DNA of 25,893 nt from a virus. Positions within the stretch are counted from its first letter, which is position 1. Each line of letters begins with the position of its first letter. Below the pieces are notes generated by a model. The model was not told where the DNA came from and ran no database searches. It saw nothing but the letters and a program-made list of their open reading frames with translations. The stretch spans positions 1-25,893 of the IMG/VR virus record IMGVR_UViG_3300042879_005094, one strand, 5' to 3'. Both the position numbers and the translations under genes were made by a program. Shown piece by piece: positions 1 through 21,914 of this stretch.

Positions 1-2
1 AT

Positions 3-3000
3 GGTACAAATGGTACAAACGGCACCTCAGGTACAAATGGTACAAATGGTACAAATGGTACCTCAGGAACCAATGGTACAAATGGTACCAATGGCACCTC
101 AGGAACCAATGGTACAAATGGTACAAACGGTACCTCAGGTACAAATGGCACCAATGGCACCTCAGGTACAAATGGCACCAATGGCACCTCAGGTACAAAT
201 GGCACAAACGGTACCTCAGGTACAAATGGTACAGATGGAACCAATGGTACCTCAGGTACAAATGGTACAGATGGAACCAATGGTACCTCAGGAACCAATG
301 GTACAAACGGTACCTCAGGTACAAATGGTACAGATGGAACCAATGGTACCTCAGGAACCAGAGGCACTTCAGGTACCTCAGGTACAAATGGTACTTCAGG
401 TACTAGAGGTACTTCAGGTACAAATGGTACTTCAGGTACCTCCGGCACAAATGGTACTTCAGGTATAGATGGAAAAAATGGTACAGATGGAACCAATGGT
501 ACCTCAGGAACTAATGGTACCTCAGGTACTAGAGGCACTTCAGGTACTTCAGGTACAAATGGTACCTCAGGAACTAATGGCACCTCAGGTACAAATGGTA
601 CCAATGGCACCTCAGGTACAAATGGTACAAATGGTACCTCAGGAACTAATGGTACCTCAGGAACCAATGGTACAAATGGTACAAATGGTACAAACGGTAC
701 CTCAGGAACTAATGGTACAAATGGTACAAACGGCACCTCAGGTACAAATGGTACAAATGGTACAAATGGTACCTCAGGAACCAATGGTACAAATGGTACA
801 AATGGTACCTCAGGAACCAATGGTACAAATGGTACAAATGGCACCAATGGCACCTCAGGTACAAATGGTACAAATGGTACCTCAGGAACCAATGGTACAA
901 ATGGTACCAATGGCACCTCAGGAACCAATGGTACAAATGGTACAAACGGCACCTCAGGTACAAATGGTACAAATGGTACAAATGGTACCTCAGGAACCAA
1001 TGGTACAAATGGTACCAATGGCACCTCAGGAACCAATGGTACAAATGGTACAAATGGTACAAACGGTACCTCAGGAACTAATGGTACAAATGGTACAAAC
1101 GGCACCTCAGGTACAAATGGTACAAATGGTACAAATGGTACCTCAGGAACCAATGGTACAAATGGTACAAATGGTACCTCAGGAACCAATGGTACAAATG
1201 GTACAAACGGTACCTCAGGTACAAATGGTACTAATGGCACCTCAGGTACAAATGGTACAAATGGTACCTCAGGAACTAATGGTACCTCAGGAACTAATGG
1301 TACCTCAGGAACCAACGGTACAAATGGTACCTCAGGAACCAATGGTACAAATGGTACCAATGGCACCTCAGGAACCAATGGTACAAATGGTACCTCAGGA
1401 ACTAATGGTACCTCAGGAACCAACGGTACAAATGGTACTTCAGGAACTAATGGTACCTCAGGAACCAACGGTACAAACGGTACTTCAGGAACTAATGGTA
1501 CCTCAGGAACTAATGGTACAAATGGTACTTCAGGAACTAATGGTACCTCAGGTACTAGAGGTACTTCAGGAACTAATGGTACAAATGGTACCTCAGGTAC
1601 AAATGGCACCTCAGGAACCAATGGTACAAACGGTACCTCAGGTACAAATGGTACCTCAGGAACTAATGGTACCTCAGGAACTAATGGTACCAATGGTACC
1701 TCAGGAACTAATGGTACCTCAGGTACAAATGGTACAAATGGTACTTCAGGAACTAATGGTACCTCAGGAACTAATGGTACCTCAGGAACCAATGGCACTT
1801 CAGGTACAAATGGTACTTCAGGAACCAACGGTACAAATGGTACTTCAGGTACAAATGGTACCTCAGGAACCAATGGTACAAATGGTACCTCAGGAACTAA
1901 TGGCACCTCAGGAACTAATGGTACAAATGGTACCTCAGGTACAAATGGTACAGATGGAACCAATGGTACCTCAGGAACTAATGGTACCAATGGTACCTCA
2001 GGAACCAATGGTACAAATGGCACCTCAGGTACAAATGGTACAAATGGCACCTCAGGTACAAATGGTACCTCAGGAACTAATGGTACCTCAGGAACTAATG
2101 GTACCAATGGTACCTCAGGAACTAATGGTACCTCAGGTACAAATGGTACAAATGGTACTTCAGGGACTAATGGTACCTCAGGAACTAATGGTACCTCAGG
2201 AACCAATGGCACTTCAGGTACAAATGGTACTTCAGGAACCAACGGTACAAATGGTACTTCAGGTACAAATGGTACCTCAGGAACCAATGGTACAAATGGT
2301 ACCTCAGGAACTAATGGTACCTCAGGAACCAACGGTACAAATGGTACTTCAGGAACCAACGGTACAAATGGTACCTCAGGAACCAATGGCACCTCAGGAA
2401 CTAATGGTACAAATGGTACTTCAGGAACTAATGGTACCTCAGGAACTAATGGTACCTCAGGAACTAATGGTACCTCAGGTACAAATGGCACCTCAGGAAC
2501 CAACGGTACAAACGGTACCTCAGGTACAAATGGTACCTCAGGAACTAATGGCACCTCAGGAACTAATGGTACAAATGGTACTTCAGGAACTAATGGTACC
2601 TCAGGTACTAGAGGTACTTCAGGAACTAATGGTACAAATGGTACCTCAGGTACAAATGGTACCTCAGGAACCAATGGTACAAACGGTACCTCAGGTACAA
2701 ATGGTACCTCAGGAACTAATGGCACCTCAGGAACTAATGGTACCAATGGTACCTCAGGAACTAATGGTACCTCAGGAACTAATGGTACCAATGGTACCTC
2801 AGGAACTAATGGTACCTCAGGAACTAATGGTACCAATGGTACCTCAGGAACTAATGGTACCTCAGGTACAAATGGTACAAATGGTACCTCAGGTACAAAT
2901 GGTACCTCAGGAACCAATGGTACAAACGGTACCTCAGGTACAAATGGTACCTCAGGAACTAATGGCACCTCAGGAACTAATGGTACCAATGGTACCTCAG

Positions 3001-6000
3001 GAACTAATGGTACCTCAGGAACTAATGGTACCAATGGTACCTCAGGAACTAATGGTACCTCAGGTACAAATGGTACAAATGGTACCTCAGGAACCAATGG
3101 CACTTCAGGAACCAATGGTACAAACGGTACCTCAGGTACAAATGGTACCTCAGGAACTAATGGTACCTCAGGAACTAATGGTACAAATGGCACCTCAGGA
3201 ACTAATGGTACCTCAGGAACTAATGGTACCTCAGGAACTAATGGTACAAATGGCACCTCAGGAACTAATGGTACCAATGGTACCTCAGGAACTAATGGTA
3301 CCTCAGGAACCAATGGTACAAACGGTACTTCAGGAACTAATGGTACCTCAGGAACTAATGGTACCTCAGGTACAAATGGTACAAATGGTACTTCAGGAAC
3401 TAACGGTACCTCAGGAACTAATGGTACCAATGGTACCTCAGGAACTAATGGTACCTCAGGAACTAATGGTACAAATGGCACCTCAGGAACTAATGGTACC
3501 AATGGTACCTCAGGAACTAATGGTACCTCAGGTACAAATGGTACAAATGGTACCTCAGGAACCAATGGCACTTCAGGAACCAATGGTACAAACGGTACCT
3601 CAGGTACAAATGGTACCTCAGGAACTAATGGTACCTCAGGAACTAATGGTACAAATGGCACCTCAGGAACTAATGGTACCTCAGGAACTAATGGTACCTC
3701 AGGAACTAATGGTACAAATGGCACCTCAGGAACTAATGGTATCAATGGTACCTCAGGAACCAATGGCACCTCAGGAACTAATGGCACCTCAGGAACTAAT
3801 GGTACCAATGGTACCTCAGGAACTAACGGTACCTCAGGAACTAATGGTACCAATGGTACCTCAGGAACTAATGGTACCTCAGGTACAAATGGTACAAACG
3901 GTACCTCAGGAACTAATGGTACTTCAGGAACCAATGGCACCTCAGGTACAAATGGTACAAACGGTACTTCAGGAACCAATGGCACCTCAGGTACAAATGG
4001 CACCTCAGGAACTAATGGTACAAATGGTACTTCAGGAACTAATGGTACCTCAGGAACTAATGGTACCTCAGGAACTAATGGTACCTCAGGTACAAATGGT
4101 ACAAATGGTACTTCAGGAACTAATGGTACCTCAGGAACTAATGGCACCTCAGGTACAAATGGTACAAACGGTACTTCAGGAACCAATGGCACCTCAGGTA
4201 CAAACGGTACCTCAGGTACAAATGGTACCTCAGGAACCAATGGTACAAACGGTACCTCAGGTACAAATGGTACCTCAGGAACTAATGGCACCTCAGGAAC
4301 TAATGGTACCAATGGTACCTCAGGAACTAACGGTACCTCAGGAACTAATGGTACCAATGGTACCTCAGGAACTAATGGTACCTCAGGTACAAATGGTACA
4401 AACGGTACCTCAGGAACTAATGGTACTTCAGGAACCAATGGCACCTCAGGTACAAATGGTACAAACGGTACTTCAGGAACCAATGGCACCTCAGGTACAA
4501 ATGGCACCTCAGGTACTAGAGGTACCTCAGGAACTAATGGCACCTCAGGAACTAATGGCACCTCAGGAACCAATGGTACAAATGGTACCTCAGGTACAAA
4601 TGGCACCTCAGGTACAAACGGTACCTCAGGTACAAATGGTACCTCAGGAACCAATGGTACAAACGGTACCTCAGGTACAAATGGTACCTCAGGAACTAAT
4701 GGCACCTCAGGAACTAATGGTACCAATGGTACCTCAGGAACTAACGGTACCTCAGGAACTAATGGTACTAATGGTACCTCAGGAACTAATGGCACCTCAG
4801 GTACAAACGGTACCTCAGGTACAAATGGTACCTCAGGAACCAATGGTACAAACGGTACCTCAGGTACAAATGGTACCTCAGGTACTAGAGGTACTTCAGG
4901 AACTAATGGTACAAACGGTACTTCAGGAACTAATGGTACCTCAGGTACAAATGGCACCAATGGTACCTCAGGAACTAACGGTACCTCAGGAACTAATGGT
5001 ACCAATGGTACCTCAGGAACTAATGGTACCTCAGGTACAAATGGTACAAACGGTACTTCAGGAACTAATGGTACCTCAGGTACAAATGGCACCTCAGGTA
5101 CAAATGGTACCTCAGGTACAAATGGTACAAATGGTACCTCAGGAACTAATGGTACCTCAGGAACCAATGGTACAAATGGTACCTCAGGTACAAATGGCAC
5201 CTCAGGAACTAATGGTACCTCAGGAACTAATGGTACAAATGGTACCTCAGGAACTAATGGTACAAATGGCACCTCAGGTACAAATGGTACCTCAGGTACT
5301 AGAGGTACTTCAGGAACTAATGGTACAAACGGTACTTCAGGAACTAATGGTACCTCAGGTACAAATGGCACCTCAGGTACAAATGGTACCTCAGGTACAA
5401 ATGGTACAAATGGTACCTCAGGTACAAATGGCACCTCAGGTACAAATGGTACCTCAGGTACAAATGGTACAAATGGTACCTCAGGAACTAATGGTACCTC
5501 AGGTACTAGAGGTACTTCAGGAACTAATGGTACAAATGGTACCTCAGGTACAAATGGTACAAATGGTACCTCAGGAACTAATGGTACCTCAGGTACTAGA
5601 GGTACTTCAGGAACTAATGGTACAAATGGTACCTCAGGTACAAATGGCACCTCAGGTACAAATGGTACCTCAGGTACAAATGGTACAAATGGTACCTCAG
5701 GTACAAATGGCACCTCAGGCACTAGAGGTACTTCAGGAACCAATGGTACAAACGGTACCTCAGGAACTAATGGTACCTCAGGAACCAATGGCACTTCAGG
5801 TACATCTTCAGTATTTGAATATTGTACTATTCCACAAGATGGATCAGGACAAAAAATAATACCTATTAGTCTTGATGGTTCTACTAACTTACAAACTACT
5901 AAAAATTATGCTAGAATTGAATTTTTTGCCAGTGGATCAAATATACTCCAAGCCACTAGAACCACAGCTGTTTGGTCTAATAGTGGTACATATCCTTTAA

Positions 6001-6161
6001 CATTTTCTTCAGTTGAAGATGTAAGAACACCTGATAATAAACTTATTTATAACACGGCAACAGTAACTGGAAGTTGGCCGTCAAATCATACATTGAACTT
6101 ATTAGTAACTCAGTATAATATTAATGGTATAACATACTGTGCTAGATATGTATTTTTATAA
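3..6161 (+). CDS. Giant collagen-like (Gly-Thr-X)n phage fibre protein, 5' end outside window
   Basis: The frame whose codons start at positions divisible by 3 reads GTNGTNGTS and continues open from base 3 to the TAA at 6159-6161, giving 2052 residues in the window. Residues 1-1935 are 645 collagen-type triplets. The second residue is Thr in all but three that I found (GID at 462, GKN at 471, GIN at 3738), and the third is Asn or Ser with about 11 Arg and 5 Asp. The repeat has no proline. The last 117 residues (5808-6158) are a non-repetitive, beta-rich C-terminal domain with Cys codons at 5823 and 6138, probably a trimerising or receptor-binding head. Frame choice rests on three things. Glycine falls every third residue. 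Base changes fall mostly on third codon positions (GGT/GGC/GGA, ACA/ACC/ACT). The competing frame 1 is cut by TAG at 466-468 exactly where this frame reads GIDGKNG. Family knowledge: phage collagen-like repeats form trimeric fibres. The start codon lies upstream of the window, so total length is unknown. Confidence 0.93.
660..1207 (+). repeat. Segmental duplication inside the collagen repeat, offset 369 bp
   Basis: Bases 660-838 and 1029-1207 are identical by eye over 179 bp, including rare choices such as AAC and GGC codons at the same places. The offset is 41 units of 9 bp. Confidence 0.85.
1635..2317 (+). repeat. Segmental duplication inside the collagen repeat, offset 414 bp
   Basis: Bases 1635-1903 and 2049-2317 match over 269 bp with one difference that I can see, GGA at 1749 against GGG at 2163 (silent). 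The offset is 46 units of 9 bp. Another 414-bp spacing relates the GTR blocks at 4881 and 5295. Confidence 0.85.
3012..3741 (+). repeat. Segmental duplication inside the collagen repeat, offset 468 bp
   Basis: Bases 3012-3273 and 3480-3741 are identical by eye over 262 bp. The match ends where the second copy has ATC instead of ACC, producing the only GIN triplet. The offset is 52 units of 9 bp. Confidence 0.85.
5439..5647 (+). repeat. 90-bp tandem duplication near the 3' end of the collagen repeat
   Basis: Bases 5439-5557 match bases 5529-5647, a period of 90 bp (10 triplets) repeated about 2.3 times. Each copy carries one GTR-GTS pair (starting at 5502 and 5592). Direct adjacency suggests a recent unequal exchange or slippage event. 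Confidence 0.85.
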
Positions 6162-6169: not shown

Positions 6170-6805
6170 ATGGGAAATACTAGTGTTTTTAATAAAATAG
6201 GATTTATATCTAAAGCAGCTAATGTAATATTAGCTGGAGATGTAGCTGAGAGTACTCTTGGTAATACTATGAATAATATCTCTAGTATTGGGGTTGTAGA
6301 GGATGGTGTGTATCCTGTTTTACCTCTTGAATTTGCTTTTTATAAAGAAATAACTGTAACATCTAATCAAACATATTATACATTATTTACTCATAATGTT
6401 ACTTGGAGTTCTACAATAAGTAAATTTCCCCCATATAATGCTATTCAAGTTTACCTATCAGCCAGAGCTATTTCAGGGGCTGCTATAGGCATTAATGGTA
6501 GAGCTGGGGTATATGGTATAAGAAGTATAATACCTTATGGGACAGGAGTAAGCTCAGGGAATGCTCTTTATAATAACACCAATAAAAGAACTTATATATG
6601 GACTTATAATAGAGTAGGAATCACAGGGGGAGGTGGTGGTGAAGCAAATTTTTCTTTATTTTCTATGGCTAGCGAGGATCCGTTAATAGGATTAGTTCCT
6701 TCTACAACAGGTGATGTTTTAACATATAGTTTTGTTATAAAAACAAATAACGTTCAGAATATAACAGGAACTTGGGCTGTACAAGGATTAGCTACTTTAT
6801 TGTAA
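6170..6805 (+). CDS. Hypothetical virion protein, probable fibre-associated, 211 aa
   Basis: This gene starts 8 bp after the giant fibre gene, with an A/T-rich leader and no Shine-Dalgarno sequence. I do not recognise a family. The protein has a short N-terminal part (residues 1-50) followed by a Ser/Thr/Tyr-rich, probably beta-stranded body, with a glycine run (GGGGG) near residue 155. It has no signal peptide or membrane segment. Its C-terminus (TWAVQGLATLL) has the same flavour as the ends of the next two proteins and of the collagen fibre, each of which finishes in a short hydrophobic beta-like stretch. Position directly after a fibre gene suggests a virion-surface or receptor-binding role. 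This is inferred from context only. Confidence 0.75.
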   Translation: MGNTSVFNKIGFISKAANVILAGDVAESTLGNTMNNISSIGVVEDGVYPVLPLEFAFYKEITVTSNQTYYTLFTHNVTWSSTISKFPPYNAIQVYLSARAISGAAIGINGRAGVYGIRSIIPYGTGVSSGNALYNNTNKRTYIWTYNRVGITGGGGGEANFSLFSMASEDPLIGLVPSTTGDVLTYSFVIKTNNVQNITGTWAVQGLATLL

Positions 6806-6811: not shown

Positions 6812-7306
6812 ATGGTAACTTTAAATAACATAAAATCTTTTCCACAATTAAGTTATATACCTACAGGATCATTTGTTGATACAGCAGCTGGAGAGAATGT
6901 CTATCAGCCTATAAAAGGAGCTTTTGTTGTACATACTAGATCTGGTGGATTAAATTCATCAACAACCAATTTATTTGATATACCTATAAACACATATTCT
7001 AGTAATTTTGCTTATAGATATACTAATGCTGAGATATTAATAGTTAATGCTAGTACAGTAACTGGTGCCTCTGGAGTTACTAATACTATAGCTAGGTTAT
7101 TTTGTTCTCGAAATAACATAGGAACTAGCTCAACCACAACTTCAGACATATATTTAAGTGGTGGAACCGCTGCTTATACTGATACTTGGAATTCTTTTTT
7201 AATATATGATACTATTAATTTTAAATTTATACTAAGACTAGTTGTAAGTAGTACTACAACAATAACTAATGTAGGTTTATATAAAGGAACATATAAAATT
7301 TTTTAA
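6812..7306 (+). CDS. Hypothetical virion protein, beta-rich, 164 aa
   Basis: The start is 6 bp after the previous stop. No family is recognised. The N-terminus reads FPQLSYIPTGSFVDT, which resembles the N-terminus of the following protein (YPQIAFSSISGGDYVDS), so the two may be distant paralogues. The rest is Ser/Thr/Asn-rich with alternating hydrophobic residues, typical of small beta-sandwich virion proteins. It has no catalytic motif, signal peptide or transmembrane helix. It sits in the same tight gene string as the fibre genes and is probably co-expressed with them. Confidence 0.75.
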   Translation: MVTLNNIKSFPQLSYIPTGSFVDTAAGENVYQPIKGAFVVHTRSGGLNSSTTNLFDIPINTYSSNFAYRYTNAEILIVNASTVTGASGVTNTIARLFCSRNNIGTSSTTTSDIYLSGGTAAYTDTWNSFLIYDTINFKFILRLVVSSTTTITNVGLYKGTYKIF

Positions 7307-7308: not shown

Positions 7309-7863
7309 ATGGCTGTACTTTTACCTCGTAATTCCTCTAATTCATATCCTCAAATAGCATTCTCAAGTATTAGTGGAGGAGATTATGTTGATAGTAATGG
7401 TAATATTTTAGGTCAAATCAGACAAGAAGCATTCTATAATTCTTTTACTATAAGTACATCATCAACAATTAGAACATATCTTGTTTATGATTTAACAAAT
7501 TACCCTGGTTGTAATGGTATTATAGTTAACGCATCTTTAGAGTCTAATTTCCAGGGCTCACCTACAGCACCTAACAATGTAACTTTTAATTTTAACCATT
7601 ATTTTACAAGAACTATTGTATCAGGATCAGGAACAAACTCAAATTTGGCTTCAAATACCCTTAATATTGATAATGCTTCTGTAAATTTAAATACAGGAGC
7701 ATCCCAAGAAAATAGTCAATTTTTCCCTACAAACTTAGCTGGTCTTAATCCATTAGTTAGTAATGTAGGCGCTTATATATATTCTAATCAGATAGTTCAA
7801 TTTAGATTAAATTTTAAAGCTAATGTTACTTATTATATAAAAGGTATAACTACTTTTATATAA
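7309..7863 (+). CDS. Hypothetical virion protein, beta-rich, 184 aa
   Basis: Only two bases separate its ATG from the previous stop. The first 30 residues (with YPQIAFSS and YVDSNGN) resemble the start of the preceding 164-aa protein, hinting at duplication and divergence. The body is rich in Asn, Ser and Thr with beta-type alternation. No enzyme motif is visible. As the third of three small proteins after the giant fibre gene, it is plausibly an adhesin or fibre-tip accessory, but the function is unknown. It is followed by a 31-bp gap that contains a TATTTATA box. Confidence 0.75.
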   Translation: MAVLLPRNSSNSYPQIAFSSISGGDYVDSNGNILGQIRQEAFYNSFTISTSSTIRTYLVYDLTNYPGCNGIIVNASLESNFQGSPTAPNNVTFNFNHYFTRTIVSGSGTNSNLASNTLNIDNASVNLNTGASQENSQFFPTNLAGLNPLVSNVGAYIYSNQIVQFRLNFKANVTYYIKGITTFI

Positions 7864-7894: not shown

Positions 7895-8983
7895 ATGCAA
7901 ATATTTGGAAATGCTCTTGGAATTATTGTTACAGACTCAGCTTCTTTATCAGAGGGATCAGCTTCTTTAAACCAAACTTTACCAGTTTTAAATTTTATTT
8001 TTGATTCAGATTTTGCTAATTCTAACGATTCAGGATCAATAGCTGCTATTGAAGCTTCTATAACAACTTCTTCTAATAATGGAGTAGCTGGAAATTTAAT
8101 ATTTAGAGTATCAGATACCTCTAACTTAACTTCTTCAGGGTCTGAAGTGGCTAGAATGTTTAATAGTGGGGGGGAGGCTAGGGTAGGTATAGGTTTTACT
8201 GATCCTTTAGAAAAACCTTTAACAACTTTAGATGTCAAATCTCAAATAAACTCAGCGGAAGGTACTCAAATCTTTTTAAGAAGTAGTAGAACTACTTTTG
8301 GAGCCCAAGTTGGAGATTCAGCTGGGGCTATTTCTTTTTTAGTAGATAGCGCCAGTTTTACAACAGAAAGTAAAGACCAATTCCAAGCTTCAGGTTCTAT
8401 AGCTGTAATTGATAGTGAAGTCACAACTGTTGATAAAAAAGGAGTTACAGGGGTTTTAAAATTTAATTATTACTCAGTTTCTGATTATATTACTAGAACA
8501 TTATTTACTATTGGAGATTTAGGTGGAGCTGATTATGTAGTTCAATCAACCGCTGATCGTACTGAATTAAAACCTAGTTCATATACTTTTCCTAACTCAT
8601 ATCTTACTATAGAATATGGATCAGGAAGTTATCTTGAAGAAAATAAAGTAGAACTAACTTTTATTACAGCTTCCATAACTAGTGATACTGAAATTACTAT
8701 AGGAGCTGCTTTTATTGGTGGTACTAGTAATGTTGGGTATTATAGTCTTATAATAGAATATAGTTTAATTAGTGGAGCTTCTAGTCCTTTAACAACAGCT
8801 GGGAGGACAGGTCAGTTTATGGCTGTTACTAATGGAGGTATAGTACATGATTTTACAGATTTTTCTACTCCTTCTATAGGTAATGAACCTTCCCCTCCAA
8901 TACTTTCTTGTAGTAGTGCTGGTAATTTGGTTATAAAAAGTGGAAGTGGTTATACTTTTAGAGGATATATCAAAAGGTTTTAA
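7895..8983 (+). CDS. Probable tail fibre protein with internal repeat, 362 aa
   Basis: Two similar segments can be seen. Residues about 35-73 (FDSDF ... SGSIAAIEA ... GVAGNLIF) and about 148-193 (VDSASF ... SGSIAVIDS ... GVTGVLKF) share spacing and sequence. Between them, at residues 96-115, is RVGIGFTDP ... TTLDV, a form of the GIGT-x-P-x-x-x-LDV motif seen in many phage tail fibres and other trimeric adhesins just before or after beta-helical parts. The C-terminal 150 residues are Ser/Gly-rich and beta-like, without a recognised chaperone domain. The fibre role comes from these motifs and from neighbouring fibre genes. The receptor is unknown. Confidence 0.7.
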   Translation: MQIFGNALGIIVTDSASLSEGSASLNQTLPVLNFIFDSDFANSNDSGSIAAIEASITTSSNNGVAGNLIFRVSDTSNLTSSGSEVARMFNSGGEARVGIGFTDPLEKPLTTLDVKSQINSAEGTQIFLRSSRTTFGAQVGDSAGAISFLVDSASFTTESKDQFQASGSIAVIDSEVTTVDKKGVTGVLKFNYYSVSDYITRTLFTIGDLGGADYVVQSTADRTELKPSSYTFPNSYLTIEYGSGSYLEENKVELTFITASITSDTEITIGAAFIGGTSNVGYYSLIIEYSLISGASSPLTTAGRTGQFMAVTNGGIVHDFTDFSTPSIGNEPSPPILSCSSAGNLVIKSGSGYTFRGYIKRF

Positions 8984-9036: not shown

Positions 9037-10431
9037 ATGGCGAACGAATTTATAGCTAGAAAAGGACTTATAGCTCTTGAATCCTCTCAAATAACAGGTA
9101 GCTTATTTGTTAGTGGTACTTCATTTTTTACAGGATCTGTAGATATCTCAGGGGGTATTGAAAATACTCATTTTATTGATTTCTCAACAACAGCTACCCC
9201 AGCATACTTAGAAGGTAGAGTTAATTGGATAGATGATACTAAAACATTAGCTATTGATACAGAACTTAATGGTTTCTCTATTGAAGTAGGTCATCAAAAT
9301 GTTATTAGAGTAAGAAACGAAACTGGTACTACCATATCAAGAGGTAGAGTAGTTTATTTAAGCGGTTCTTCAGGTAATAGACCACTTATCTATACTTCAA
9401 GTTTTGAAATAGACCCAACATCAGCAGGTACTGTAGGTTTAGTAGCAGCTGATATTAGCACTTCTAACAATGGTTATGTTATATCCAATGGTTTAATTAG
9501 AGATATAAACACAACTGCTTATACAGCGGGTGCTGTATTATATCTTTCTTCAAGCGGTCAACTTTCAACAACAGCACCTGTAGCACCTCTACATGCTGTT
9601 AGGATGGGTAAGGTTATAACATCCGCAGTATCTGGTATAATCCACGTAGATGTTGATAACGGTTATGAAATCGGTGAGTTACATGATGTAGTTGATAATA
9701 CAACAAGTACAACATATGGTTCGCTATTAGTTAAATCAGGTAGTGTATGGAAAGATGGTTATCAACTAACTGGTTCATATGGTTTAACTGGTAGCTTAAG
9801 TGCGACATCATTTACTGGTTCATTACAAGGAACTGCTTCTTGGGCATTAAATGTTGTTGGGGGAGGGGGAGGAGTCACAATTAATAATAATGTTGACAAT
9901 TATTTAATTACTGCTACAGGTACTGCTAATACTTTAAATGGTGAATCAGGTTTAACTTTTGATGGTACCACATTAACAGTAGCTAATAATGCTGTAATAA
10001 CAGCTATTGATGTAAGAAACGACCCAAGTACAACTATTGGTCAGTATGCTCCTGGCGCTCATATGGGTAGGGATTGGCCTGCCGCTGGTGGACCTGCTTT
10101 AACAGCTGGTAATATAGTTTATTTTTCAGGCAGTTCACAATGGACTAATGCTCAAGCTAATGCTACAGGTAGTAGTACCAGGATACTAGGTGTTGTGACA
10201 GATAATGCAGATCCAAATGAAATAGTTCTTCAAGGTACAGTTACAATTAATACAGACTTAGCTACATATCAAGTAGGCCAACCTGTATATTTAAGTCCAT
10301 TAACAGCTGGTAAAGTAACTAATGTACCCCCTTCATCTTCAGGTCATGTAGCTAGATATGTGGGATGGGTTGTTGATACTAGTAGAGATCAAATATATTT
10401 TAATCCTGATTTTACATATATTCAATTATAA
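9037..10431 (+). CDS. Tail fibre/virion structural protein with duplicated beta module, 464 aa
   Basis: The N-terminus (ANEFIARKGLIALESSQITG) and the central LTGSLSATSFTGSLQG segment (residues 250-265) are of a type I associate with structural or fibre proteins of uncultured aquatic phages. A module appears twice, at residues about 88-205 and 355-460. Each copy runs through a VVYLSG or IVYFSG strand, a GLVAAD or LGVVTDN strand, a VLYLSSSGQL or PVYLSPLTAGKV strand, and a final IHVDV or IYFNP strand. A poly-glycine hinge (residues 275-279) and a TLNGESGLTFDG strand lie between them. No enzymatic motif is visible. It has the best ribosome site in the window and its own upstream TATTTATA box, consistent with strong late expression. 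Confidence 0.75.
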   Translation: MANEFIARKGLIALESSQITGSLFVSGTSFFTGSVDISGGIENTHFIDFSTTATPAYLEGRVNWIDDTKTLAIDTELNGFSIEVGHQNVIRVRNETGTTISRGRVVYLSGSSGNRPLIYTSSFEIDPTSAGTVGLVAADISTSNNGYVISNGLIRDINTTAYTAGAVLYLSSSGQLSTTAPVAPLHAVRMGKVITSAVSGIIHVDVDNGYEIGELHDVVDNTTSTTYGSLLVKSGSVWKDGYQLTGSYGLTGSLSATSFTGSLQGTASWALNVVGGGGGVTINNNVDNYLITATGTANTLNGESGLTFDGTTLTVANNAVITAIDVRNDPSTTIGQYAPGAHMGRDWPAAGGPALTAGNIVYFSGSSQWTNAQANATGSSTRILGVVTDNADPNEIVLQGTVTINTDLATYQVGQPVYLSPLTAGKVTNVPPSSSGHVARYVGWVVDTSRDQIYFNPDFTYIQL

Positions 10432-10435: not shown

Positions 10436-11683
10436 ATGCCTCAAATAAACGGAATAGAAACAACAGCTATAGCTGGTTTAGGACAGATAGGAGTAACACC
10501 TGCTACAATTTATCCTTCAGGAGGGTTAGTTGTTAACTCAAATGTACTTAGGTCAGGATCACTCACTAATAGTGGGTATATTTATGGAACAGCCCCATTT
10601 TATAATAGACCATATGATATGGCTAGTGCTTCATTAGGTACTAGTACTTGGACTAAAATAGTAGGTAATAGCGTGGCTATTTACCTTTTGTCTTCAAGTG
10701 GTGAATTGTATTCTATGGGTAGTAGTACCTTTTATACAAGTACAGGTCAAACTTATAGATTATCTAAAGTAACTACTGGGTCTAGTGGGTGGACAGATAT
10801 AGCAGCTGGTAGTAATTTTGCTTTAGGAATTTGTGATAGTAAATTATTTGGTATAGGACTTAATGGTAATGGTCAACTTGGCAATGGAACTACTACCGCT
10901 ATTCTTACTAATTTTGCTGTTGTAAACAGTAATCCTTGGTGGACCCGAGTATCATGTGGTGAAGAAATGGCTATGGCTATGAGTGGTTCAGGTGGTTCAG
11001 GTGTATTATTCGCCGCTGGTAGAAATTTTGAAGGAAGAACAGGTCAAAATACAAGTACAGGCAACACTATAACTTGGACCCGAGTAGTCAATCATACAAG
11101 TAGTATATTTACTGACTTTAGCTGTGGTAATGACTTTACATTAGCCATCTCAGGGAGTAACATATTTGGTACAGGTGATGCTTCTGCTTTTGTATTTGGA
11201 AATAATAGTGAAACTGATTTATTAACCTTTACCTTAGTATCAGGTAGTGGTATTTGGAGTAGAGTATTTGCTTTTAATGCTTTCAGTAAAGCTATAGATA
11301 CTAATGGTTCTCAATATCATTGTGGGCAACAAGCTTATTCTAGGGGAGATGGTAGCATAGCTAACCTTAATACTTGGACTCGTTTAAACACTGCCTCAGC
11401 TGAATTTTCAGGTAGTTGGACAAATTTTTATGCTAACAACATAGGTAGTACAACTTATGGAGTTATAGGAGTAAATAGGAATAGACCTTTCTACATAGGA
11501 CAAAGAGGTACCACTACAGATTGGTTCCCAAATACAACTTGGACTGATTATACTACAGCTTCAAATGAGGCTACTTGGAAACCATTTGTAAGTACTAGTG
11601 TTAATGTAAGTTGTAGTGCTGCTGGTTTTTGGGGCAGTGCATTTGAACCAACATTGTTTATACAATTAACCCCAATATCATGA
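10436..11683 (+). CDS. RCC1/BLIP-II-like beta-propeller virion protein, 415 aa
   Basis: The protein contains six to seven repeats of roughly 45-55 residues, each opening with a tryptophan or phenylalanine strand and a small-residue turn. They begin near residues 72 (WTKIVGNS), 119 (WTDIAAGSNFAL), 169 (WTRVSCGEEMAM), 224 (FTDFSCGNDFTLAI), 274 (WSRVFAF), 328 (WTNFYANN) and 380. The second has the classic RCC1 signature FGIGLNGNGQLGNG at residues 138-151. Family knowledge: RCC1 and BLIP-II repeats fold as a seven-bladed propeller that binds proteins or other ligands. A longer frame begins at 10358 inside the previous gene, but the ATG at 10436, four bases after that gene's stop, gives a normal N-terminus (MPQINGIETT). 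In this fibre cluster it is most likely a fibre tip or receptor-binding head. Confidence 0.78.
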   Translation: MPQINGIETTAIAGLGQIGVTPATIYPSGGLVVNSNVLRSGSLTNSGYIYGTAPFYNRPYDMASASLGTSTWTKIVGNSVAIYLLSSSGELYSMGSSTFYTSTGQTYRLSKVTTGSSGWTDIAAGSNFALGICDSKLFGIGLNGNGQLGNGTTTAILTNFAVVNSNPWWTRVSCGEEMAMAMSGSGGSGVLFAAGRNFEGRTGQNTSTGNTITWTRVVNHTSSIFTDFSCGNDFTLAISGSNIFGTGDASAFVFGNNSETDLLTFTLVSGSGIWSRVFAFNAFSKAIDTNGSQYHCGQQAYSRGDGSIANLNTWTRLNTASAEFSGSWTNFYANNIGSTTYGVIGVNRNRPFYIGQRGTTTDWFPNTTWTDYTTASNEATWKPFVSTSVNVSCSAAGFWGSAFEPTLFIQLTPIS

Positions 11684-11973: not shown

Positions 11974-13860
11974 ATGTCTATAGCTTTATCAATTAATTGT
12001 GAAGGGCTAGGTGATGTTATATCTTCTATACCTACTATTAGAAAAATATCTCAAGCTTATAACACACCTATAACTGTTTTTAGTTTATATCCTGAACTTT
12101 TTGAGAATCATCCTTGTGTAAGTAAAACCTTACATATAAATGATCCCAAAGAAGGATATGAGATATTAAATACTTTTTCTCACATAGCTGGAAAAGAACA
12201 TAGTTTAGAAGGAAATGTTGTTCAATTCAAACATTCCCATATTGATATTAGACAATATCATGCTCTTTCTTTAGGTTTTTCTTTACTACCTAAAGAAATG
12301 GAAACTGATCTTTATATTGAAGAAGATTGGGAAGTAGATTTTAAAGATTATATTATAATACATCCTACCCATACTTGGTCTTCTAGAACTTGGTCCTTTG
12401 AGAATTGGCAAAATTTAATTTATAAACTAAATCAACTTAATATTCCTGTTATAGCTATAGGTAAAAATACAGTTGAACATGGGCATGGAGAAGCCTATAA
12501 TAAAAAAGTTATGGAAATTGATATTCCATATGGTTTAAATTTAATGAATCATCCTGAGAGTAACTTTTCTAAGCTAAGAGGACTTTTTAAAAAAGCAAGA
12601 TGTATTATAACTATGGATTCAGGTATACTTCACTTAGCAGGAACAACTGATATTCATATAATTCAATTAGGATCTTCTATTAATCCTAAATTAAGAGCTC
12701 CTTATAGAAAAGGATCTCAAAACTATAAATATAATTATATTAAAGGATCTTGTGATTTATACTGTGCTTCCAATCTTAGATATAACATAAAAGAACATAA
12801 TTCTATACAAGGTGCTTCACCCTTAGACAATTGTTTAGAAAATAAACCTACATTTGAATGTCATTCAAAAATAGAAGATGTTATCAATGTTGTAAAAAAA
12901 TTACCTATGACTAAACAAAAATTAATGTATATAACTCCTCATTTGTCAACAGGAGGAATGCCTCAATATGTTTTAAGACAAATAAAAGAATTTAAAGCTT
13001 TTTTTGATATATCTATTATAGAATATGAGTTATATTCTGATACTTATATAGTTCAAAGAGAACAAATTAAAAATTTAATACCCTCTGAAAATTTTTTTTC
13101 TTTAGGGAAAGGTACTAATAATAAACCTGAGGTACTTGATATTATTCAGCAGATAAAACCTGATATTATTCATTTTCAAGAAGTCCCAGACAATTTTATA
13201 CATGAAAGTATTTTAAAAAAATTATTTAATCTAAATAATAGACCATATTTTATAGTTACTACTCACTCTAGTTATACTAACCCTTCTAAGTTACAATTTA
13301 TACCTGATAAGTTTATTTTGGTATCTGAATGGAGTAAAGAAAAATTTTCTAAGTTAACAACCCCATGTGAGGTATGGGAATATCCTATTGATAATTTAAC
13401 CCCAGAAAAAGAAAAATACCAAAAAGAATTAGGTTTAAATCCTAATTATAAACATATAATTAATGTTGGACTTTTTACTCAAGGAAAAAATCAAGGTGAA
13501 CTATTCCAATTAGCTAAAGAATTAGAAGAATATCCATTTTATTTTCATTTTATAGGTAATCAGGCTGAGAATTTTTATGATTATTGGGGTCCTTTAATGG
13601 AAAATAAACCTGATAATTGTATTATATGGGGAGAAAGAGATGATGTTTATAAATTTATCCAAGCCGCTGATTTATTCTTTTTTAGTTCTAAATTAGAATT
13701 AAATCCTTTAGTTATTAAAGAAGCTTTATCTTATAAACTGCCTATTTTTATGAGAAAATTAAACACTTATTTAGATTATTATGATAATAATTTTTTAGTC
13801 ACTTATATAGACAATGATCTTGAAAAAACTAAACAACTTTTAATATCCCATTTAAAATGA
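11974..13860 (+). CDS. Two-domain glycosyltransferase, GT9-like then GT4-like, 628 aa
   Basis: Residues 1-305 look like a GT9 (heptosyltransferase-type) domain. They have the nucleotide-loop start GLGDVISSIPTIRK (11-24), an IIIHPTHTWSSRTW strand and turn (127-140), and TMDSGILHLAG (213-223), the family's DSG-x-x-H-x-A signature. Four cysteines follow (260, 264, 287, 296), as in a metal-binding finger. Residues 315-628 look like a GT4 (GT-B fold) domain, with PHLSTGGMPQYV (322-333), TTHSS (429-433), INVGLFTQGKNQGEL (496-510) and the donor-site E-x7-E pair at E575 and E583. Both domains keep their signature residues, so two linked transfers are plausible. The donor and acceptor are not shown by the sequence. 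The stop overlaps the next gene by ATGA, so the two glycosyltransferases are coupled. Alternative roles are host surface modification or nucleotide modification. I favour virion glycosylation from context. Confidence 0.85.
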   Translation: MSIALSINCEGLGDVISSIPTIRKISQAYNTPITVFSLYPELFENHPCVSKTLHINDPKEGYEILNTFSHIAGKEHSLEGNVVQFKHSHIDIRQYHALSLGFSLLPKEMETDLYIEEDWEVDFKDYIIIHPTHTWSSRTWSFENWQNLIYKLNQLNIPVIAIGKNTVEHGHGEAYNKKVMEIDIPYGLNLMNHPESNFSKLRGLFKKARCIITMDSGILHLAGTTDIHIIQLGSSINPKLRAPYRKGSQNYKYNYIKGSCDLYCASNLRYNIKEHNSIQGASPLDNCLENKPTFECHSKIEDVINVVKKLPMTKQKLMYITPHLSTGGMPQYVLRQIKEFKAFFDISIIEYELYSDTYIVQREQIKNLIPSENFFSLGKGTNNKPEVLDIIQQIKPDIIHFQEVPDNFIHESILKKLFNLNNRPYFIVTTHSSYTNPSKLQFIPDKFILVSEWSKEKFSKLTTPCEVWEYPIDNLTPEKEKYQKELGLNPNYKHIINVGLFTQGKNQGELFQLAKELEEYPFYFHFIGNQAENFYDYWGPLMENKPDNCIIWGERDDVYKFIQAADLFFFSSKLELNPLVIKEALSYKLPIFMRKLNTYLDYYDNNFLVTYIDNDLEKTKQLLISHLK

Positions 13861-15026
13861 TCTATAATAATTTAGAAAAAACAGCTAAGTATTTAGAAAA
13901 AATTTTTTTTAATGTAAACTTTATAATGGGGGCCCAATTAGATATTGATGGTCCTTCTTCTAGTACTTATCAAGTTAAATTTTTTAATCATAAAACTAAT
14001 GAGTTAGTTTATGAAACTTTTTTAAAGTCTGGGATGTGGTCTAAACCTTCTATTCAATATTATATTCAATGGAGAATAGAAGTATGGGAAAATAATGAAT
14101 TAAAATTTGAACATATACTTAATTGTGAGAATAAAAAAATATATATTCATTTAAGTAGTAAAGCTTTAGGTGATACTATAGCTTGGTTTCCTTATATAGA
14201 AGAATTTAGAAAAGAACATAATTGTGAAATAATATGTTCAACTTTTTATAATGATTGGTTTATAGAAAAATATCCTGAGATTCAATTTATTAATCCTGGA
14301 GAGATGGTTTATAATATATATGCTATGTATGATATAGGTTGGTTTTATACTGAAGAGGGTGGTATTGATTTAACTAAACATCCCAAAGATGTTAAATCAT
14401 ATCCTCTTCAAAAAACAGCTTCTGATATTTTAGGTTTACCTTATAAAGAAATTAAACCTAATTTAAATATAAAAATTTTAGAACCTTTCATAACTGAACC
14501 TTATGTTATTATAGCACCACATGGTTCTAAACATGCAGCTTATTGGAATTACCCTGGGGGTTGGCAGGTTGTTATAGACTGGTTAAATGATCAAGGGTAT
14601 AAAGTAGTTATGTTATCTAGAGAATCTTTAGGAGATACTTGGCATGATTCTAAATTAGGAGGAACTTTAACAGGAGTAATAGATAAAACAGGAAATAATA
14701 GTTTTCAAGAAGTTTTTAACATTATCAACAATTCTGAACTACTAATAGGTTTGGGTAGTGGACTAACCTGGATAAGTTGGGCCTTAAACAAACCTACAAT
14801 ATTAATCTCAGGATTTAGTGATCCATACACAGAAATGCAAAATTGTATTCGCTTATCAGCTTCATCTAATGTTTGTGGAGGTTGTTTTAATACTCATAAG
14901 TTAGATGCTGGGGATTGGGATTGGTGCCCCCATCATAAAAATACAGAACGTCATTTTGAATGTTCTAAGTCTATAAAACCTGAGCAGGTAGTAAAATCTC
15001 TCAAAGAAGTTTTACATATTTATTAA
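13857..15026 (+). CDS. Autotransporter-type strand-loop-strand O-heptosyltransferase (TibC/Aah family), 389 aa
   Basis: The family enzymes transfer a sugar, heptose in TibC and Aah, to Ser/Thr hydroxyls of repeat-rich surface proteins. Residues 20-90 form the N-terminal beta domain of this family (VNFIMGAQLDIDGPSS, then GMWSKPSIQYYIQW and NCENKK). Residues 95-330 are a GT9-like GT-B core: SSKALGDTIAWFPYIEEF (100-117, with the conserved GD at 105-106), ICSTFYNDWFIEKYPEI, an APHGSKHAAYWNYPGGW acceptor or donor loop (220-236), and LIGLGSGLTWISWAL (296-310). Residues 338-372 hold the diagnostic cysteine finger C340-x2-C343-x13-C357-x11-C369 with GDWDWCPHHKNTERHFECS, matching the iron-binding finger known for TibC. 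The start is chosen because its ATG overlaps the preceding glycosyltransferase stop. The family call is strong. The sugar used and the target protein are inferred. Confidence 0.9.
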   Translation: MIYNNLEKTAKYLEKIFFNVNFIMGAQLDIDGPSSSTYQVKFFNHKTNELVYETFLKSGMWSKPSIQYYIQWRIEVWENNELKFEHILNCENKKIYIHLSSKALGDTIAWFPYIEEFRKEHNCEIICSTFYNDWFIEKYPEIQFINPGEMVYNIYAMYDIGWFYTEEGGIDLTKHPKDVKSYPLQKTASDILGLPYKEIKPNLNIKILEPFITEPYVIIAPHGSKHAAYWNYPGGWQVVIDWLNDQGYKVVMLSRESLGDTWHDSKLGGTLTGVIDKTGNNSFQEVFNIINNSELLIGLGSGLTWISWALNKPTILISGFSDPYTEMQNCIRLSASSNVCGGCFNTHKLDAGDWDWCPHHKNTERHFECSKSIKPEQVVKSLKEVLHIY

Positions 15027-15328: not shown

Positions 15329-17059
15329 ATGGCAGAAGCATTATTATCACCTGGTGTATTTACTAGAGAAAATGACCAGTCTTTTATTCAACAACAACCA
15401 GTTCAAGCTGGGGCGGCTATCATAGGTCCTACAGTTAAAGGTCCTGTTGAAGAACCTACAGTTGTCACTTCTTATAGTGATTTTACAAATAAATTTGGTA
15501 GTGTATTTACTAGTGCTAGTAATACTTACACTTATTTTACGTCTATAGCAGCTTATAATTATTTTAATAATGGTGGAGATAGTTTATTAGTCACTCGTGT
15601 TGTTAGTGGAGCTTTTACCTCAGCCACAAGCACAGCTATAAGCTCAAGTGACCAACCAAGTTCACAACCTGCTTTTGTTCTAAAAACAATTGCTAAAGGA
15701 TCTAATCAAAATAGTATCTCATCACAAGATAGTGATGGAGCCTTAGCTAGTGGTTCCTCAGACAACTTAAGATGGGAAATTTCTCAAACTGATTCTAATA
15801 TAGGAACTTTTACTCTTTTAATTAGAAGAGGAGATGATATAACTGATGAAAAAGCAGTTTTAGAAACTTGGGCTAATTTATCACTAGATCCTTATGCTCC
15901 TAATTATATATCTAAAGTTATTGGAGATCAAGTTAAAACTAAAGTTACAGATAGTGCTGGTAATGTTTATCTTCAATATTCTGGGTCTTATCCAAATCAA
16001 AGTAGATACATTTATATATCTTCTGTAAAGAACGCCACACCTAATTATTTTGATAATAGTGGTAACCCTAAAACTCAATTTACAGGCTCATTACCTTCTA
16101 CAGGCAGTGGTTCTTTTGAAAATGCTACTGGAGAATTATTTGGGGCTGGGGCTAGATTTTATGAGACAATAGCTGCTGCTACCAATATTCAAGGATTAGA
16201 TGCTTATGTATATACTGCTTCCTTAGATATATTATCAAATAAGGATGAATATCAATTCAACACCTTAGTAATGCCTGGGATAATTAGTGATCTTGGAGGC
16301 ACATCAGCTACAACTATCAATAAAGCCCTAACTATGGCTATTGAAAGAGGTGATTTCTTAACAGTTATAGACATGGAAACTTATGGAGCTACAGTTGCTA
16401 ATGTAACATCTGAAGCCCAAACCTATAACAATAGTTACACCGCTACATATTGGCCTTGGTGCCAAGTGGCTGATCCTGATACTGGACAGTTAGTATGGGT
16501 CCCTGCCTCAACACTAATCCCAGCTGTCTATGCTTTTAATGACAGAAATGCTGAAGCTTGGTTCGCCCCTGCTGGTTTAAATAGGGGAAGTTTACCAACA
16601 GTGATCAGAACTGAAAGAACTTTAACTAAATCAGATAGAGATACTTTATATTCTAGTAATGTTAATCCTATAGCTACTTTCCCTAATAGTGGTGTGGTAG
16701 TTTTTGGACAAAAAACATTACAAAAGAAAGCAAGTGCTCTTGATCGGGTCAATGTTAGAAGATTATTAATTGAGTTAAAAAATTATATAGGACAATTAGC
16801 TCAAAATTTAGTCTTTGAACAAAATACTACAGCTACAAGAAATGCCTTCTTATCTCAAGTTAACCCATATCTTGAAAGTATTCAACAAAGACAAGGTCTT
16901 TACGCCTTTAGAGTAATTATGGATGATAGTAACAACACACCTGATGTTATAGATAGAAATCAATTAGTAGGTCAAATATTCCTACAACCCACAAGAACAG
17001 CTGAGTTTATAGTACTTGATTTTAATGTTCTTCCAACAGGAGCTGAGTTTCCATCTTAA
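15329..17059 (+). CDS. Contractile tail sheath protein (T4 gp18-like), 576 aa
   Basis: The sheath polymerises around the tail tube and contracts to drive it through the host envelope. The N-terminus carries the family opening LLSPGVFTRENDQS (residues 5-18), followed by AAIIGPTVKGPVEEPTVV and the YSDFTNKFGS strand, typical of the conserved sheath core. The middle part (about 90-300) is the variable surface region. The C-terminal third carries LNRGSLP ... RTERTLTKSDRDTLY and, from residue 459, FGQKTLQKKASALDRVNVRR ... NLVFEQNTTATRNAF ... YAFRVIMDD. These are the signatures of the C-terminal sheath domain that interlocks with neighbours. Length is slightly below T4 gp18 (659 aa). It is followed directly by the tube gene. 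Confidence 0.93.
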   Translation: MAEALLSPGVFTRENDQSFIQQQPVQAGAAIIGPTVKGPVEEPTVVTSYSDFTNKFGSVFTSASNTYTYFTSIAAYNYFNNGGDSLLVTRVVSGAFTSATSTAISSSDQPSSQPAFVLKTIAKGSNQNSISSQDSDGALASGSSDNLRWEISQTDSNIGTFTLLIRRGDDITDEKAVLETWANLSLDPYAPNYISKVIGDQVKTKVTDSAGNVYLQYSGSYPNQSRYIYISSVKNATPNYFDNSGNPKTQFTGSLPSTGSGSFENATGELFGAGARFYETIAAATNIQGLDAYVYTASLDILSNKDEYQFNTLVMPGIISDLGGTSATTINKALTMAIERGDFLTVIDMETYGATVANVTSEAQTYNNSYTATYWPWCQVADPDTGQLVWVPASTLIPAVYAFNDRNAEAWFAPAGLNRGSLPTVIRTERTLTKSDRDTLYSSNVNPIATFPNSGVVVFGQKTLQKKASALDRVNVRRLLIELKNYIGQLAQNLVFEQNTTATRNAFLSQVNPYLESIQQRQGLYAFRVIMDDSNNTPDVIDRNQLVGQIFLQPTRTAEFIVLDFNVLPTGAEFPS

Positions 17060-17103: not shown

Positions 17104-17592
17104 ATGGCAGTATTAGATCCAAACGAAATATTTTTTACAGCTTTTGAACCTAAAGTTAAAAATAGGTTTATCCTGTATGTTGATGGCATACCTTCTTATC
17201 TAATAAAAGGAGTAGGAGCTGTAACTGTAGAAATGGGGGAAATTAAACTAAATCATATTAATGTCTACCGTAAAATAAAAGGAAAGGCCAACTGGTCTGA
17301 TCTTAGCATGACATTGTATGACCCAATTACCCCATCAGGAGCCCAGTCTGTAATGGAATGGGTTAGATTACATCATGAATCTGTAACAGGTAGAGATGGT
17401 TATTCTGATTTTTATAAAAAAGATTTAACTATCAATGTTTTAGGTCCTGTTGGGGATATTATTAGTGAGTGGGTTGTCAAAGGAGCTTTCATTAAAACAG
17501 CCAATTTTGGTGAATTTAACTGGGACACTGAAGCTGAAGCTCAAAATATAGCTTTAACAGTTGGTATGGATTATTGTGTATTAAATTTCTAA
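17104..17592 (+). CDS. Tail tube protein (T4 gp19-like), 162 aa
   Basis: It forms the inner tube through which DNA passes. The length is almost the same as T4 gp19 (163 aa). The visible pattern is that of the tube family: an N-terminal PKVKNRFILYVDGIPSYLIK strand pair, AVTVEMGEIKLNHINVYRK, a SDLSMTLYDPITPSGAQSV strand leading into the helix VMEWVRLHHESVTGRDGY, and the final IALTVGMDYCVLNF strand. It is encoded between sheath and chaperone-position genes, the standard place in myoviruses. A strong hairpin terminator follows 20 bases after its stop, so transcripts of the sheath and tube pair probably end here. Confidence 0.93.
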   Translation: MAVLDPNEIFFTAFEPKVKNRFILYVDGIPSYLIKGVGAVTVEMGEIKLNHINVYRKIKGKANWSDLSMTLYDPITPSGAQSVMEWVRLHHESVTGRDGYSDFYKKDLTINVLGPVGDIISEWVVKGAFIKTANFGEFNWDTEAEAQNIALTVGMDYCVLNF

Positions 17593-17612
17593 TAAACAAA
17601 ATATATCTTAAG

Positions 17613-17642
17613 AAAAGAGTGCTATTATCGCGCTCTTTTTTT
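17613..17642 (+). terminator. Intrinsic terminator after the tail tube gene
   Basis: AAAAGAGTGC (17613-17622) pairs with GCGCTCTTTT (17630-17639) through 10 pairs including one G-U, with loop TATTATC, and runs into a T tract. The TATTTATA box at 17652 follows at once. Confidence 0.88.
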
Positions 17643-17651
17643 ATTATTATA

Positions 17652-17659
17652 TATTTATA
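17652..17659 (+). promoter_or_regulatory. TATTTATA box, candidate late promoter element
   Basis: ATATTTATAATAAAATAAAG lies between the terminator at 17613-17642 and the ATG at 17680 (20 bases), a position that fits a promoter restarting transcription. Confidence 0.5.
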
Positions 17660-17679
17660 ATAAAATAAAGTTATTAAAA

Positions 17680-18417
17680 ATGAGTGAATTTAAATTTCCC
17701 ACAGAGACAATTGACTTACCTTCTAAAGGTTTAGTTTATTCTGAAGATAGTCCTCTATCAAACGGTAAAATAGAAATGAAATATATGACCGCTAAAGAGG
17801 AAGATATTTTAACTAATCAAAATTATATTCAAAAAGGTACAGTATTAGATGAATTATTAAAATCTCTTATTGTCACAAAAATTAATTTTGATGACCTTAT
17901 TATAGGTGATAAAAATGCTATTCTTATAGCAGCCCGTATTTTAGGATATGGTAAAGATTATACTTTTATGTATGAAGGAGAAGAGATAACAATAGATTTA
18001 TCAACTCTTGAAACTACTGAATTAGATGAGAAAGAATTTGTTAAGGGCAAAAATGAATTCTCTTTTACCTTACCTCACTCAGGAACTAACATTACATATA
18101 AACTTTTAACACATGGTGATGAAAGAAAAATTACTGATGAGGTAAAAGGCCTTCAAAGACTTAATAAAAATTCATCCCCAGAATTATCAACAAGACTAAA
18201 ATATATGATTTTATCAGTTGATGGAGATCAATCAAAATCTACTGTTAGAAATTTTGTAGACAATTATTTTTTAGCTCGTGATTCTAGAGCATTTAGAGAA
18301 CACATTAGAAGAACCCAGCCTGATGTAAAATTAATTTTTGATCATGATGGTCCTAATGGATTTAAATCTGATTTGAATATACCTATTGGAGTTAACTTTT
18401 TTTGGCCTGACGCCTGA
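17680..18417 (+). CDS. T4 gp26-like baseplate/tail assembly protein, 245 aa
   Basis: The motifs LPSKGLVYSEDSPLSNGKIE (residues 13-32), MKYMTAKEEDILTNQNYIQK, and FDDLIIGDKNAILIAARILGYG match the T4-like baseplate protein family that includes gp26, found next to gp51 and the tape measure in T4-like phages. T4 gp26 is about 208 aa, so this one is a little longer. It lies between tail tube and tape measure, the place normally taken by tail-assembly chaperones. Its last codons overlap the next frame in a run of seven T (18397-18403). Ribosomes shifting there would make a fusion of about 335 residues. It has its own TATTTATA box and follows a terminator. Confidence 0.8.
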   Translation: MSEFKFPTETIDLPSKGLVYSEDSPLSNGKIEMKYMTAKEEDILTNQNYIQKGTVLDELLKSLIVTKINFDDLIIGDKNAILIAARILGYGKDYTFMYEGEEITIDLSTLETTELDEKEFVKGKNEFSFTLPHSGTNITYKLLTHGDERKITDEVKGLQRLNKNSSPELSTRLKYMILSVDGDQSKSTVRNFVDNYFLARDSRAFREHIRRTQPDVKLIFDHDGPNGFKSDLNIPIGVNFFWPDA

Positions 18418-18688: not shown

Positions 18689-18697
18689 TGCTTTTTT
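18672..18697 (+). terminator. Intrinsic terminator overlapping the end of the frameshift frame
   Basis: AAGCATCA (18672-18679) pairs perfectly with TGATGCTT (18686-18693), with loop CAAAAA, followed by T residues to 18697. The TGA stop at 18686-18688 is part of the right arm. A TATTTATA box follows 1 base later. Confidence 0.82.
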
Positions 18698-18698
18698 A

Positions 18699-18706
18699 TA
18701 TTTATA
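18699..18706 (+). promoter_or_regulatory. TATTTATA box, candidate late promoter element
   Basis: TATATTTATAACAT lies between the terminator and the tape measure ATG at 18714, leaving 7 bases to the start codon. A transcript starting downstream of this box would be leaderless or nearly so. Confidence 0.45.
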
Positions 18707-18713
18707 ACATATT

Positions 18714-21899: not shown

Positions 21900-21906
21900 T
21901 TATTAA

Positions 21907-21914
21907 TATTTATA
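21907..21914 (+). promoter_or_regulatory. TATTTATA box, candidate late promoter element
   Basis: TTAATATTTATAACAAAAAG lies in the 25-bp gap, 10 bases before the ATG at 21925. Confidence 0.45.

Follow-up and report, generated by a model that had tools for sequence, protein, structure and literature searches.

Genes for TibC-like glycosyltransferases are linked with genes for Ser/Thr-rich collagen-like fibres in many phages

A linear virus fragment of 25,893 bases (IMG/VR record IMGVR_UViG_3300042879_005094; here called the window, which is the entire record) starts within a gene for a collagen-like fibre and carries, about 8 kb downstream of the Gly-X-Y array of that gene, a gene for a homologue of the protein O-glycosyltransferases TibC and AAH, which we call GTb. 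Comparison of virus contigs showed that TibC-like genes are genomically linked with serine/threonine (Ser/Thr)-rich collagen-like genes in many phages. From these sequence data we consider it probable that the window encodes a collagen-type phage fibre whose Ser and Thr residues are O-glycosylated by the phage-encoded GTb, helped by a second glycosyltransferase, GTa. The first-pass annotation of this DNA had raised the puzzle of a collagen with neither proline nor charge and had overlooked the nearby TibC-like gene, which in our view best addresses it. The elements concerned are the following:

3 to 5807, plus strand: array of 645 unbroken Gly-X-Y triplets, mainly GTN and GTS (translation, PF01391), with its 5' end beyond the contig
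5808 to 6161, plus strand: C-terminal domain of the fibre, 117 residues, predicted to be all-beta (phmmer, alignment, AlphaFold2)
11974 to 13860, plus strand: GTa, consisting of a GT9 part and a GT4 part (profile search)
13857 to 15026, plus strand: GTb, TibC/AAH-like protein O-glycosyltransferase homologue (TIGR04414, phmmer, structural model)

The array is of extreme uniformity, being composed of 372 GTN, 254 GTS, 11 GTR and 5 GTD triplets and one each of GID, GKN and GIN. Our recount agrees with the earlier description of this repeat: Gly occupies every third residue in 645/645 triplets and Thr fills position X in 642 of them, there is no proline or methionine, and the reading phase is never broken. 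Charged residues are limited to 11 Arg, 6 Asp and 1 Lys. The collagen family PF01391 matched the first 500 residues with an E-value of 4e-76 (251 bits, cut-off 27.2), and past the array a further 117 residues precede the stop of the open reading frame (ORF) at 6161. This ORF also matches phage tail-fibre PHROGs and lies on the same strand as a tail module with sheath, tube, tape measure and baseplate genes; the PF01391 match and the tail module bear out the proposal that this is a collagen-like fibre gene of a contractile-tail phage.

Three long frames are open across the array, namely the Gly-X-Y frame on the plus strand, frame 1 (469-5859, 1796 residues) and an antisense frame (2-5794, 1931 residues). 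On the sequence evidence the Gly-X-Y frame is the coding one, as the first-pass annotation had preferred. What decides the matter is the C-terminal domain fused to this frame, which matches a separate 161-residue protein of another phage (locus L218, 5043-5528) with 43% identity and a phmmer E-value of 5.6e-21. Within the Gly-X-Y frame, the first two positions of the Gly codons are invariant and the third is variable (GGT 414, GGA 165, GGC 65, GGG 1). The AlphaFold2 model of the C-terminal domain is all-beta with a mean predicted local distance difference test score (pLDDT) of 64, and a fold search with it returned no PDB match at E <= 0.001. No relatives of the domain appeared in a first scan of viral sequences or in the phage collection, and a later search found one phage, in three assemblies. 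The lack of an ATG, formerly taken as a trait of such genes, is instead explained by truncation of the contig inside the repeat, since in 34 of 34 closed Thr-rich Gly-X-Y ORFs, drawn from loci L002-L201 with near-identical copies counted, the repeat is preceded by an in-frame Met and by an N-terminal part that is not collagen. The 373 N-X-S/T sequons in the array led us to consider N-glycosylation, which we set aside.

This composition is a widespread phage type and not a singularity, contrary to the impression that the array was unique. A single scan of viral contigs with a degenerate GTN/GTS pattern returned at least 119 similar stretches, the longest single uninterrupted run among the matches listed being 874 triplets (L030). 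The suspicion that such genes are mis-annotated gained one instance in Microcystis phage Mel-JY01 (L213), although there it is the antisense frame that was called and not frame 1. The plus strand of this record carries a Thr/Ser-rich Gly-X-Y ORF at bases 2-3049, over which two antisense 'hypothetical proteins' with PLVPEVP-like repeats are annotated (1-651 and 739-2298), while the annotation of the true strand is a short coding sequence covering the last 177 residues of the ORF. The final 2.3 kb of the same linear record are unannotated and contain a long open frame. Such fibres can thus be called on the wrong strand, an annotation trap.

GTb scored 291.8 bits against TIGR04414, the model for the autotransporter strand-loop-strand O-heptosyltransferases AAH and TibC (cut-off 200), versus at most 33.1 bits against models of lipopolysaccharide (LPS) heptosyltransferases, and phmmer matched it to the TibC structures 4rb4 and 4rap at E 1e-51. 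Its AlphaFold2 model (predicted template modelling score, pTM, 0.80) has an N-terminal beta-barrel and a GT-B fold, with low confidence in the iron-finger region, residues 339-370. A Foldseek search with this model returned the TibC structures 4rap and 4rb4 at E 1.9e-31 with a template modelling (TM) score of about 0.8, and LPS heptosyltransferase II at 2.4e-8. TibC has four iron-finger cysteines, a catalytic Asp and a Trp in the donor site (PMC4358343). The corresponding GTb residues, Cys340, Cys343, Cys357 and Cys369, Asp106 (Asp110 in TibC) and Trp305, are conserved in 11/11 aligned sequences. By sequence and model, GTb is therefore a TibC-like homologue, and we file it as that only, and not as an ADP (adenosine diphosphate)-heptosyltransferase, because Lys230 and Arg286 of TibC are not conserved. 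The last 4 bases of GTa are also the first 4 of GTb.

The linkage was examined from several directions with limits (7.5 kb, 80 kb and 0.8 Ser+Thr per triplet) that were set after the first data had been seen; an association with PF01075 was superseded by the more specific TIGR04414. A first set of 39 records, 38 found by a search with the tail sheath plus phage immuto, contained TIGR04414 over its cut-off in 16, PF01391 in 10 and both in seven (G004, G005, G009, G011, G014, G015 and G034), while the contigs of the nine enzyme-only records stop within 4.7 kb upstream of the enzyme. Where at least 7.5 kb was available upstream of the sheath, 7/7 enzyme loci lay on collagen contigs, six of them Ser/Thr-rich. 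In sheath relatives without GTb and with the same upstream length, Gly-X-Y was present in 0/13 of the upstream stretches examined, two of the 13 having a collagen that is not Ser/Thr-rich elsewhere on the contig (G010 and G020). A reverse sample of 73 further loci was found from the enzyme alone, and in all 25 with at least 7.5 kb upstream there was a Gly-X-Y gene, Ser/Thr-rich in 24 (the exception is L250). Clustering of the reverse sample at 95% identity gave 17 clusters, 16 of which have a Ser/Thr-rich array. The fraction with a Gly-X-Y gene was 9/18 where 3-7.5 kb was available and 0/30 below 3 kb; the Gly-X-Y genes of this sample end 4.3-7.8 kb upstream of the enzyme. Contigs with a 97-99% identical GTb (L122-L124 and L216) all stop short of the array. 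Locus L218 has the cassette, and no sheath match was found in it, which argues that the linkage is more than shared tail synteny. The commonest feature that the linked arrays have in common is Ser in position Y.

Starting from the collagen side, we picked by hand 50 Thr-rich Gly-X-Y contigs among the matches listed (the initial list comprised 71 contigs of 30 kb or longer), near-identical phages included, and found TIGR04414 over its cut-off in 32, among them 21/21 of the contigs of at least 80 kb. In 26 of the 32, no more than 10 kb separates the enzyme from a Ser/Thr-rich run. GT2 (PF00535) and GT4 (PF13692) are each present in 36/50 of these contigs (E <= 0.001), and we drew no evidence from them. 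The control consisted of 25 contigs of at least 42 kb with GAQ-type collagens among the matches listed, except L024, already counted among the Thr-rich contigs; one control, L312, has no ten-triplet run in the stretch examined. Among the seven controls that bear the enzyme, two have a Ser/Thr-rich Gly-X-Y array near it, three have a GAQ array alone, truncated where the contig stops, and the remaining two have no Ser/Thr-rich array in the part examined. A tblastn search of 50,697 phage records found the enzyme in four, Mel-JY01, LR756501, LR756503 and LR756504, with Ser/Thr-rich Gly-X-Y near it in Mel-JY01 and LR756501; LR756503, identical to LR756501 in length and match, was left out of the neighbourhood check. 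In LR756501 (L214), a huge-phage record of 735 kb, a short Ser/Thr Gly-X-Y ORF lies on the opposite strand a few kb from the TibC-like gene. In bacterial genome contigs, any Gly-X-Y was found at 6/54 TibC-like loci, four of them Ser/Thr-rich; these four resemble the phage enzyme more closely than the other loci do, and one has phage tail genes. The closest three belong to Flavobacteriales, Winogradskyella and Bacteroidetes bins.

We propose that the gene at 3-6161 belongs to a collagen-like virion fibre, supplying its shaft and its C-terminal domain, and that Ser- and Thr-bearing triplets take the place of proline in the shaft. GTb would glycosylate hydroxyls of this shaft, of Ser in Y, Thr in X or both, in the infected cell ahead of assembly, GTa would perhaps extend the sugars placed by GTb, and the sugars would stabilise the shaft, coat it, or both. 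By analogy, Ser of the GTS triplets is no less likely than Thr to be the acceptor, because TibC modified Ser and because of the prevalence of Ser in Y in linked arrays. A precedent for modification of a collagen-like region is SgtA, which glycosylates Thr in that region of BclA3 and whose gene is adjacent (PMC7157674).

Several observations weigh against this proposal. At the donor site, Lys230 of TibC is replaced by Ala228 in GTb, which has a Lys at 225, as does the L218 homologue, and Arg286 by Val286; GTb may therefore use a donor other than ADP-heptose, or be less active. In the TibA peptide tested, TibC acted on Ser and left Thr unmodified (PMC4358343), which bears on Thr as an acceptor. 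A collagen from an E. coli prophage, moreover, is stable although its Thr residues are not glycosylated (PMC3368898). As to the linkage, the samples include related phages, and the P values obtained are descriptive and take no account of this relatedness. In addition, 18 of the 50 Thr-rich contigs, each below 80 kb, have no TIGR04414 match over the cut-off, and 7/25 GAQ controls do have one (4/13 at 80 kb or more). Furthermore, the enzyme lies 40-275 kb from the arrays found in 6 of the 32 contigs, it is paired with a proline/glutamine-type collagen in G009 and L250, and in the huge-phage record LR756504 no Gly-X-Y occurs within 20 kb of it.

One alternative is that the fibre is unmodified, its Ser/Thr/Asn shaft folding or staying extended alone while the glycosyltransferases act elsewhere. 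Unglycosylated collagen-like fibres are indeed known from E. coli prophages (PMC3368898), and 18 of the 25 GAQ controls carry Gly-X-Y genes without a TibC-like gene, but we regard this account as rather unlikely given that GTb belongs to a protein O-glycosyltransferase family, that the enzyme neighbours specifically Gly-X-Y genes, Ser/Thr-rich in nearly every adequately long locus of the reverse sample (24/25), and that the sheath relatives without the enzyme had none nearby. We find it improbable that GTa and GTb instead act on LPS or O-antigen at the host surface, or on a different virion protein such as the RCC1-like protein or the product of 9037-10431, and are near the fibre through a shared host-recognition region. 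Glycosyltransferases in such regions of phages have been interpreted as LPS modifiers (PMC7029224), GT9 also includes LPS heptosyltransferases, and the further virion proteins of the region are possible acceptors. However, both the profile scores and the structural matches of GTb set it with TibC and far from the LPS enzymes, which reached 2.4e-8 or worse in the fold comparison, and the other candidate acceptors are less constant than the Gly-X-Y gene, RCC1-type matches occurring in three loci of the sheath set and relatives of the 9037-10431 protein in few.

The form and length of the chain can also be questioned. Triplets with Thr and Asn have low triple-helix stability, which together with the absence of proline and the scarcity of charges could point to another extended Gly-X-Y form, either a bundle of polyglycine-II type or a disordered, sugar-coated brush, with no collagen triple helix. 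We consider this unlikely in view of a register unbroken across 645 triplets, the PF01391 match, and a C-terminal domain fused as in trimeric fibres, although the trimer is itself putative. That the array is an artefact of assembly or recombination, with such a length not present in virions, is suggested by the end of the contig within the array, by exact repeats of up to 262 bases, and by three assemblies of the L218 phage that also break within their own arrays, at 224, 209 and 211 triplets; it nevertheless seems very unlikely, as L085 (642 triplets) and L020 (696 within one ORF) have closed ORFs comparable in kind and length. Owing to these repeats and to a share of only 89% unique 151-mers, the assembled length may be wrong in either direction, while 645 is a lower bound for the assembled gene. 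The fibre length of 550 nm given earlier is thus arithmetic from an uncertain triplet number and a presumed triple helix. Among these possibilities, glycosylation of the collagen-type fibre by GTb remains the explanation that we favour.

The proposed system resembles several known ones. With phage collagen-like tail fibres, such as EPclA-D of E. coli prophages (PMC3368898) and those of PHROG families, the window fibre shares the Gly-X-Y shaft, non-collagen ends, tail module and presumed trimer, whereas it is proline-free, nearly uncharged, far longer, almost invariably Thr in X and has a TibC-like glycosyltransferase nearby. GTb shares with TibC and AAH (TIGR04414; PMC4358343) the above-cut-off score, iron-finger cysteines, catalytic Asp and modelled beta-barrel and GT-B fold, and differs from them in being phage-encoded, in its two changed donor-pocket residues, and in having a collagen-like fibre as its neighbour; a Pfam search of most window ORFs found no autotransporter. 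Its relatives in the cassette are also often fused to GT4 and sometimes to FkbM methyltransferase domains. In many phages the TibC-like domain lies inside a frame of 728-1921 residues with GT4 ahead of it (for example L213, 4750-8430), and in L050 (1274-4195) an FkbM domain follows it. A cytidylyltransferase-like protein of Mel-JY01 was considered as a heptose-nucleotide enzyme and rejected, as its match was just weak and general. BclA3 and SgtA of C. difficile (PMC7157674) likewise combine a collagen-like surface protein, Thr-bearing triplets and an adjacent O-glycosyltransferase gene; SgtA, as described there, has a GT-A domain and adds N-acetylglucosamine, its substrate in BclA3 is GPT, with proline, and we claim no homology to GTb. 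Virion proteins of mycobacteriophages are glycosylated as well (Freeman 2023, cited in PMC12619734), there in the capsid and tail tube as opposed to the collagen-like fibre proposed here.

The remaining features of the window are listed below.

6170 to 6805, 6812 to 7306 and 7309 to 7863, plus strand: three small ORFs with no assigned function (ORF list)
7895 to 8983, plus strand: ORF kept in the L218 cassette (phmmer 5.8e-28)
9037 to 10431, plus strand: virion protein with a weak match, below cut-off, to Phage_cement_2 (profile search, phmmer)
10436 to 11683, plus strand: RCC1-like beta-propeller protein, variable among near-identical relatives (profile search)
15329 to 17059, plus strand: contractile tail sheath (profile search)
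17104 to 24684, plus strand: tail tube, baseplate protein, tape measure (18714-21899) and other tail genes (profile search)

ORFs of like size to the three small ones stand at the corresponding place in L218, and phmmer detected no sequence match between the two groups. The RCC1-like protein is 87% identical to that of L122 and just 56% to those of L123 and L124, and the 9037-10431 protein is 39-84% identical to its counterparts, while the genes flanking the pair are 97-100% identical; by sequence the two form a hypervariable pair and are candidate receptor-binding proteins. The phmmer relatives of the 9037-10431 protein include non-collagen parts of Gly-X-Y ORFs elsewhere (L097 and L086), and these matches look as if fibre arms and tips had been reshuffled. 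The final ORF, which is truncated, contains a Gln-Pro linker encoded by six exact copies of CAACCT at 25755-25790. Among named phages, Flavobacterium phage immuto has the nearest sheath (56% identity), and the source is probably a T4-like contractile-tail phage infecting Bacteroidota, a host assignment based on this sheath and the three closest bacterial loci.

In the literature searched, which largely excluded subscription journals and preprint servers, we found no description of a link between TibC-like genes and the collagen-like genes of phages. It may well be, with about as much to be said on either side, that a portable cassette, combining a Ser/Thr collagen-like fibre free of proline with a TibC-type glycosyltransferase, is present in many aquatic phages, forming a viral glyco-collagen in which sugars would stabilise the shaft in place of proline or hydroxyproline and a TibC-type ring enzyme would modify a collagen-like rather than a beta-helical substrate. 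This would provide a testable reason why phage collagens manage without proline, would widen the scope of the TibC family beyond bacterial adhesins to include viral fibres, and may offer enzyme-substrate pairs as a source for glycosylated collagen materials.

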